A stretch of 60,723 nt of DNA. Source: a virus. The stretch spans positions 1-60,723 of the IMG/VR virus record IMGVR_UViG_3300027743_000005. One strand, written 5' to 3'. The notes under the pieces were generated by a model. The model searched no databases. It was not told the DNA's origin and saw only the letters and a program-made list of their open reading frames with translations. Shown here piece by piece: positions 51,081 to 52,614 of this stretch (positions within the stretch are counted from its first letter, which is position 1; the number at the start of each line of letters is the position of its first letter). A program made the position numbers and the translations under genes.

Positions 51081-52096
51081 TGCAGCGCCTGCAATCGTCC
51101 ATCGAGCGGGTCACGTTGAAGCGCGGCGTGCCGATGACGCCGTGTACCTACGCCGTCGACACCAGCGAGCGGTGGGCCGGGACACTGGCGACGTGCGGAG
51201 CGATGATCCCGCACCGTCCCAAGCACCCCTGCCCGGAGTGCGGCCAGCACCAGATCAACGCCCACGCCCCTGACCCGCCCGAGGGAGCGCTCATCTTCGA
51301 CCGCGACGTCGCCATCGTGGACGCTGCCTCCAAGCAGGTCGTCGGGGTCTACGTCACGTGCGCCCACGACATCGCCACCAACCTCGCCGCCGACCTGCGT
51401 CAGGTCGACTTCGACTCGGCGCCGTTCATGCGAAGCCCGTCGACCGCGGCGCGCCTCAGCGGCATCTCGGCGGCCAGCCGGACGTTCGGCTACCAGCCCC
51501 CGGTGCCCATGCGTCGCCGCTACGGCTGCTCGCGCTCGCAGTTCAACGCCCAGCACCCCGCCGCCGCCGAACACCTGGCGGAGTTCTGCCGGGTGGCCGA
51601 GCGCGCCATGCGGACCTACGCCGAGGACGTGTACGCCACCACCGCCGATCAGGTCCGCAAGGCGATCCCCAGCGCCTGGCTCATCGCCGGGACGCCGTGG
51701 TCGAGCGGGATCATCAACAAGACGGCCTCGCTGCCCTACCACACCGACAAGGCGAACATTCCGATGTCGTGGTCAGCCATGCTCGGCGCTCGACGCAACA
51801 TCGAGGGCGGGCTGCTGCACTTGGCGGACTACGACGCCTGGTTCACCATCAGCCACGGCAGCATCATCATCTTCGACGGCCAGTCGGTGACCCACGGCGT
51901 GAGTCCGCTGCACCCCTCAGGAGCGAACCCCTGGCGCTACACGTGCGTCGTCTACGCCAAGCAGGGCATGAAGGTGTGCTGCGGCGACCCCAAGGAGGAG
52001 GCGAGGCGCGCCGCCCGCGCCGCCACCGACGCCGAGACGCTGCGGATCGGCAACCGCATCACCAAGCGCGGCCCCCGGCAGCGCAAGAAGGGCTAG
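51080..52096 (+). CDS. TET/JBP-family 2-oxoglutarate/Fe(II) dioxygenase
   Basis: 338 residues, ATG 51080. C-terminal catalytic domain: SLPYHTDKANIPMSWSAM gives the iron ligands H221 and D223, IEGGLLHLADY follows, then IIIFDGQSVTHGVSPLH gives H272, and WRYTCVVYAKQGM gives R287 as the likely 2-oxoglutarate ligand. This order and spacing are those of TET/JBP enzymes, which oxidise 5-methylcytosine or thymine in DNA. N-terminal half has CPECGQH and RRRYGCSRSQF, possibly substrate-binding. With the C5-methyltransferase at 11.5 kb it suggests 5-methylcytosine to 5-hydroxymethylcytosine conversion in phage DNA. Substrate choice is inference. Confidence 0.82.
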   Translation: MQRLQSSIERVTLKRGVPMTPCTYAVDTSERWAGTLATCGAMIPHRPKHPCPECGQHQINAHAPDPPEGALIFDRDVAIVDAASKQVVGVYVTCAHDIATNLAADLRQVDFDSAPFMRSPSTAARLSGISAASRTFGYQPPVPMRRRYGCSRSQFNAQHPAAAEHLAEFCRVAERAMRTYAEDVYATTADQVRKAIPSAWLIAGTPWSSGIINKTASLPYHTDKANIPMSWSAMLGARRNIEGGLLHLADYDAWFTISHGSIIIFDGQSVTHGVSPLHPSGANPWRYTCVVYAKQGMKVCCGDPKEEARRAARAATDAETLRIGNRITKRGPRQRKKG

Positions 52097-52614
52097 ACCA
52101 GCTGGCCGAAGGCGAGGAAGAACCCGCCCGGCAGCGAGGTCTGCACCATCAGGTCACCGAACGGCGGCTCGATGTTGGACGTGACCGCTTCGACCCTGAT
52201 GATCTCGTAGGCGCAGGCCACCGAGGGCGACCAAACCTCCAGCCGGTCCCCAGCGTGTAGCTCGGGGATGCGGGCGAAGGGCGAGCCGTGGGTGGAGCGG
52301 TGGGCCGCCAGGTGTAGGTGAGCGCACGGTTCGCCGGTGAAGGAGACCAGACCCTGGTCGATGACGTCCTGCCCACCCCGCACGGCGTTGAACACCCCGA
52401 CAGGCATCGCCACCGTGAAGCTGTCGTCGTGGTGCGGCGCGCGTCGCGCCCTCGCTCCCGCCGCCCCCGGTGCGAGGGCGCGGTGAACGAGGTCGGTCGT
52501 GGTGGGATCGGGCACAACCTTGCGAACGTCGGGCACCCCTGTCGATCGCAGCATCCATGCGACCGCCACGACCAACAGGGCCACCAGCGTCAGAGCGATG
52601 ACGTCACGGAGCAG
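52093..52614 (-). CDS. Membrane-anchored sortase-like protein, catalytic Cys apparently replaced
   Basis: About 173 residues. No ATG/GTG/TTG fits ahead of the membrane span; a CTG at 52614, six bases after AGGAGG, does, and gives an N-terminal span (VIALTLVALLVVAVAWML). The rest matches a sortase fold: HLHLAAHRSTHGSPF with the catalytic-type His105, LHAGDRLEVW, and AYEIIRVEAV. Where sortases have the TC of the active site, the sequence reads LMVQTSLPGG (Ser160), and the usual downstream Arg is absent. It may be inactive, a dominant-negative, or use another residue. Its 3' end overlaps the dioxygenase stop by four bases (convergent). Confidence 0.68.
   Translation of the reverse strand: MLRDVIALTLVALLVVAVAWMLRSTGVPDVRKVVPDPTTTDLVHRALAPGAAGARARRAPHHDDSFTVAMPVGVFNAVRGGQDVIDQGLVSFTGEPCAHLHLAAHRSTHGSPFARIPELHAGDRLEVWSPSVACAYEIIRVEAVTSNIEPPFGDLMVQTSLPGGFFLAFGQLV

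Follow-up and report, generated by a model that had tools for sequence, protein, structure and literature searches.

Sortases are enzymes that attach proteins to the cell wall of bacteria. The window (the whole 60,723-nucleotide stretch of viral DNA analysed here) encodes a 173-residue protein that had been described as a pseudo-sortase in a first-pass annotation, and this description is supported by a sortase fold, a serine in place of the catalytic cysteine, the loss of the catalytic arginine and a predicted membrane anchor. From the sequence we infer that classical sortase chemistry has been lost. The explanation we prefer, to which we give about an even chance, is that the protein is a non-transpeptidase binding protein of the envelope, an exported and membrane-tethered sortase fold retained by selection. 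A conserved viral sortase relative lacking both the cysteine and the arginine raises the question of whether a sortase fold can be used purely for binding or can work with serine, and whether phages manipulate surface-protein anchoring in infected actinobacteria.

The gene, its start codon and its genome

The first-pass annotation had placed the gene at 52093-52614. These coordinates were retained, while the strand was corrected to minus, as a plus-strand reading of the same interval is ruled out by internal stops. The minus-strand frame runs from a CTG at 52614 to a stop at 52095-52093, and the encoded 173-residue protein contains HLHLAAHRSTHGSPF and GDRLEVW, with serine (TCG) at residue 160 in LMVQTSLPGGFFLAFGQLV. 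Because its GC content by codon position (0.73/0.49/0.87) resembles that of known genes, with the portal gene at 0.70/0.48/0.92, the frame was taken to be a real gene. Two viral relatives, L012 and L022, encode proteins with 61-71% identity to the window protein. The features at the start of the gene are as follows.

52093..52614, minus strand: sortase-fold protein, 173 residues (CTG at 52612-52614, stop at 52093-52095)
52621..52626, minus strand: Shine-Dalgarno sequence AGGAGG, 6 nt upstream of the CTG
52604..53221, minus strand: upstream gene, 205 residues, no family; its stop overlaps the CTG start, and L012 has the same neighbour
52543..52611, minus strand: signal-anchor or transmembrane helix, residues 2-24, from the model helix and the sequence

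The non-canonical CTG start, singled out by the first-pass annotation as unusual, is plausible, as L012 keeps the Shine-Dalgarno sequence, the CTG and the overlap with the stop of the upstream gene; no ATG, GTG or TTG occurs between that stop and the transmembrane segment. It is a local peculiarity rather than a property of the family, because the sortase-like gene of L022 starts with GTG. Two other starts were rejected: beginning at the ATG at 52755 would lay ~150 nt of the frame over the upstream gene in a different phase, whereas the CTG has a conserved Shine-Dalgarno sequence, and an ATG at residue 21 is absent from L012. The membrane anchor that had been proposed was recovered as a predicted hydrophobic helix spanning residues 2-24 (AlphaFold helix, pLDDT about 95).

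The phage is probably an actinobacteriophage with actinobacterial hosts, as judged from its capsid protein, for which the best matches were Curtobacterium, Arthrobacter and Gordonia phages and one cyanobacterial phage. The window is probably a circular, complete genome assembly, because contig L145 joins its right end to its left through a 127-base overlap (positions 1-127 and 60597-60723). In both the window and L012, the sortase-like gene comes last in a leftward-running operon, the genes of which are small and of regulatory type. In L022, it follows the gene for a transmembrane collagen-like protein, overlapping the stop of that gene (GTGA), and an amidase gene lies downstream. The window encodes the same collagen-like and amidase genes, but elsewhere, and these differing neighbours show that the sortase-like gene moves independently. 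The collagen-like protein carries an N-terminal transmembrane helix and is encoded at 34354-34851 (minus strand) in the window and at 7434-7945 (plus strand) in L022, being conserved despite the different gene orders. Convergent with the sortase-like gene, positions 51080-52096 (plus strand) of the window encode a Tet/JBP-type 2-oxoglutarate oxygenase (PF12851, E=2.3e-9), which may act in DNA base modification.

Sortase fold and the altered active site

Sequence-profile matches to sortases were weak but specific. The Pfam Sortase profile PF04203 matched the window protein at E=1.4e-4 and 22.0 bits and L022 at 23.7 bits, both below the cut-off of 26.6, while L012 scored above it at 27.8 bits. 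The NCBIfam class E sortase profile NF033747 matched the window protein at E=3e-6 and 27.2 bits, below its 160-bit cut-off, and SrtE1 in the PDB matched at E=0.0019. The first AlphaFold model, made with an alignment that included cellular sortases (mean pLDDT 77), had as its best structural match a class C1 sortase (Z 13.0, rmsd 2.4, 109 residues) and also matched a Thermobifida class E sortase (Z 12.9, rmsd 2.2, 108 residues) and Streptomyces SrtE1 (PDB 5cuw; Z 12.2, rmsd 2.4, 111 residues); Foldseek gave the sortase fold a probability of 1.00. As cellular sortases in the alignment could steer the fold, a second model was made from the three viral sequences alone (pLDDT 55), and all of its listed matches were again sortases, with a best Z of 9.8. 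The sortase fold, which had first been proposed partly from the GDRLEVW strand, is well supported by the profiles and the two models, and the structural comparison suggested at that time returned a sortase-like protein rather than a structure unlike sortase. The sortase-like core is small, at about 115 residues.

The former active site was examined in an alignment (A5) of 30 sequences, comprising 27 cellular sortases and the three viral proteins from the window, L012 and L022. The features of the site are listed below in residue order.

52423..52434, minus strand: HHDD (residues 61-64), part of RAPHHDD; unvarying in the viral family, absent from cellular sortases
52300..52302, minus strand: His105, corresponding to the catalytic His, within HLHLAAHRSTHGSPF (alignment)
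52153..52182, minus strand: residues 145-154 (TSNIEPPFGD), a short beta6/beta7 connection, that of class E sortases being much longer
52135..52137, minus strand: Ser160 (TCG) at the catalytic Cys position (alignment)
52117..52131, minus strand: PGGFF (residues 162-166), tight beta7/beta8 turn replacing the Arg-bearing stretch (alignment)

Ser160 aligns with the catalytic Cys column at the end of beta7, which holds Cys in 27/27 cellular sequences and Ser in each of the three distinct viral proteins, where the Ser codons differ (TCG, TCC). The catalytic Arg column, at the start of beta8 and nearly invariant in cells, falls within a deletion in the same three proteins. The alignment is therefore in agreement with the first-pass annotation, which had reported both a serine for the catalytic cysteine at residue 160 and a missing arginine. 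The catalytic-type His at the end of beta4 is kept as His105 and is invariant in the three viral sequences, as are H61, H62, D63, D64, H99, H101 and H109; the aligned cellular sortases have neither HHDD nor the H99/H101 pair. In the same alignment, both substrate loops, beta3/beta4 and beta6/beta7, are shortened, and the GHY motif with its tyrosine is absent.

The protein resembles class E sortases in its barrel fold, the motif A[AG]HRxTxGxPF with the catalytic His, the membrane anchor, the GD and V/W strand, and the T-[C/S] that ends beta7. SrtE1 binds and cleaves LAXTG through Cys320, Arg329, His251 and both loops, including Tyr229 of beta3/beta4 (PMC5148588). Compared with SrtE1, the window protein has Ser for Cys320, a deletion of the Arg329 stretch and cuts in both loops, and its family has an HHDD, an HxH and two Cys (C97 and C134) of its own.

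Conservation and relatives of the Ser family

Near-identical contigs from other samples (L001, L002) encode the same protein, and the three changes within the gene in L001 are all synonymous. Between the window and L012, dN was 0.23 and dS 0.55 (NG86) or 0.20 and 1.30 (YN00), giving a dN/dS of about 0.15-0.4 depending on the method and pointing to purifying selection on the gene. In the two segments of the former active site, 27/34 positions (79%) are invariant, as opposed to 38/84 (45%) elsewhere in the core, a contrast with a Fisher p of 0.0009 in three sequences only. This conservation and the dN/dS values indicate that the former active site is maintained and altered rather than decaying. 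Only three distinct sequences of the Ser family are known.

In IMG/VR, the motif A[AG]HRxTxGxPF was found in a sortase context only in this family (4/9 contigs matched), the other five contigs being chance reading frames; as no other viral contig there has the motif in that context, no Cys-bearing version of the Ser family was found in IMG/VR. The first-pass annotation had reasoned that close relatives all retaining a Cys would reveal an error at Ser160, and the search it proposed returned no close relative with Cys. Searching with the pattern QTSxPGGFF yielded no additional family members, a search of genomes for RAPHHDD and GEPC yielded no homologues, and no close homologues were found in isolated phages, for which L022 was searched too, or in plasmids. 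In 396 actinobacterial genomes, Cys was present in every one of the best-matching cellular relatives whose site could be read.

Searching viral models by structure pointed to gp43 of Streptomyces phage TP1604, which matches the phrog_17228 profile at E=1.4e-117.

TP1604 gp43, Samy gp76, Zuko gp45: phrog_17228 'peptidase' or 'cysteine protease' of Streptomyces phages

These exported, Cys-bearing 'peptidases' are the nearest known relatives of the Ser family, which aligned with phrog_17228-type sequences at an hhalign E of 7.7e-5; the phrog_17228 profile matched none of the window protein, L012 and L022, even with E values as high as 10 allowed. Both groups are phage-borne compact barrels with short beta6/beta7 and beta7/beta8 connections, 'IDQG' before beta3, Q-[ST]-[C/S] at beta7, and hydrophobic N-termini with a predicted export signal. 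They differ in that the mini-sortases have Cys, AxHNY and an LRR end, whereas the Ser family has Ser and AAHRxTHGxPF. In a tree, the Ser family stands apart from both the mini-sortases and the cellular sortases, which are two further separate groups, so that the compact form may or may not be common to the two phage groups through descent. By this comparison, annotated genomes already contain phage sortase-like proteins, in most cases under the name 'cysteine protease', and the Ser form is the new part. No convincing sorting signals were found among the neighbours of phrog_17228 genes in Streptomyces phages.

Cys mini-sortases of the phrog_17228 type occur widely in IMG/VR, in 27 contigs (L162-L188), with Cys in 27/27 and His in 26/27. 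The mini-sortase of Streptomyces phage YDN12 (L170) keeps the Cys but reads Arg at the catalytic-type His (LAARNYHG), making it possibly another inactive phage sortase.

Sorting signals and possible functions

Two proteins encoded in the window carry complete C-terminal sorting signals, IPATG and LPATG. They had been missed by the first-pass annotation, and their presence in the same phage favours a link to sorting.

44354..45784, minus strand: Thr-rich surface protein, IPATG, hydrophobic helix and RRRGLRRV; candidate sortase substrate
4387..5004, minus strand: 205-residue protein, LPATG, hydrophobic helix and RRTRRRLA; candidate sortase substrate, also in L145

The Thr-rich protein has an N-terminal signal peptide and is predicted to be exported; some of its IMG/VR relatives end in IPITG or LPETG signals and others have none. 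Because the window proteins and these relatives carry sorting signals, such phages probably have proteins displayed on infected cells by the sortase of the host. LPXTG-type phage surface proteins (44354-45784 in the window; L156, L157) are substrates and not sortases, the envelope pathway being common to both. The sorting-signal proteins and the pseudo-sortase do not co-occur strictly, as no sortase-like gene was found in the other sorting-signal contigs (L156, L157; several are fragments) and no sorting signal was found in G002, another pseudo-sortase phage (39.7 kb, possibly incomplete). The LPATG protein is without a signal peptide of its own. A 43-residue transmembrane ORF at 5001-5132 (minus strand), in another frame, ends in a stop that overlaps the ATG of the LPATG gene (ATGA), an arrangement that may reflect translational coupling or a frameshift fusion.

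As a binding protein of the envelope, the sortase-fold protein would be exported, as predicted, and would lie on the outer side of the membrane in the infected actinobacterium. Its remodelled former active-site face would bind, and not cleave, a partner in the host envelope, most likely the host's own sortase, the precursor of a surface protein or lipid II as the acceptor. Binding might then alter surface-protein anchoring while the LPATG and IPATG proteins of the phage are displayed. That this partner belongs to the host sortase pathway is a guess, possible rather than probable. Against a non-catalytic protein, the Ser and His could nevertheless work together as a nucleophile pair.

The sortase fold, the inactive-looking site and the predicted anchor would also suit an inhibitor or redirector of the host sortase, which would compete for sorting signals or sit on the enzyme itself and thereby block surface proteins or pili of the host, as in receptor masking or superinfection exclusion, or favour the LPATG and IPATG proteins of the phage. 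The two phage proteins with complete signals fit such a role, as do the actinobacteriophage-type capsid and the typical occurrence of class E sortases in actinobacteria from soil and fresh water (PMC5148588). However, the window protein has only shortened versions of both loops with which SrtE1 reads the signal, and it lacks the GHY tyrosine, which argues against ordinary sorting-signal binding, and the association with sorting-signal proteins is not strict; we consider this role fairly unlikely. The proposals of the first-pass annotation that the protein blocks or redirects host sortase, or carries out a new reaction, found no direct support.

Less likely still is a natural Ser-for-Cys enzyme or a new His-rich site with a reaction unlike that of known sortases, editing the host surface alongside the LPATG and IPATG proteins. 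For transacylation or hydrolysis by Ser160 and His105 on a sortase scaffold, it can be said that both residues are invariant and lie within the most conserved segments, and that in the compact Cys-bearing phage mini-sortases, too, no Arg stands at the canonical position, such that the compact form may not need one. Cys-to-Ser or Cys-to-Ala changes abolish sortase activity, however, and no Arg or other evident oxyanion-stabilising group is aligned. In the papers searched no serine sortase was found, and an active serine enzyme is distinctly improbable. The literature search for pseudo-sortase and phage-encoded sortase returned nothing on point. A metal-binding or other new activity, with a new site on the barrel made up of the family-specific histidines of HHDD, HLHLAAH and THG, would account for eight invariant His/Asp residues (61-64, 99, 101, 105, 109), of which HHDD and H99/H101 are not cellular, but with three sequences only it is very unlikely.

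A decaying, functionless sortase gene, as the joint loss of Cys, Arg and loops might suggest, or a sequencing error is hardly credible: error is ruled out because Ser is present in independent near-identical contigs and in all homologues, down to 61% identity and with the codons TCG and TCC, while cellular and phage mini-sortases have Cys, and decay is opposed by the purifying selection, by near-identical phages that differ only synonymously and by a site more conserved than the rest of the protein.
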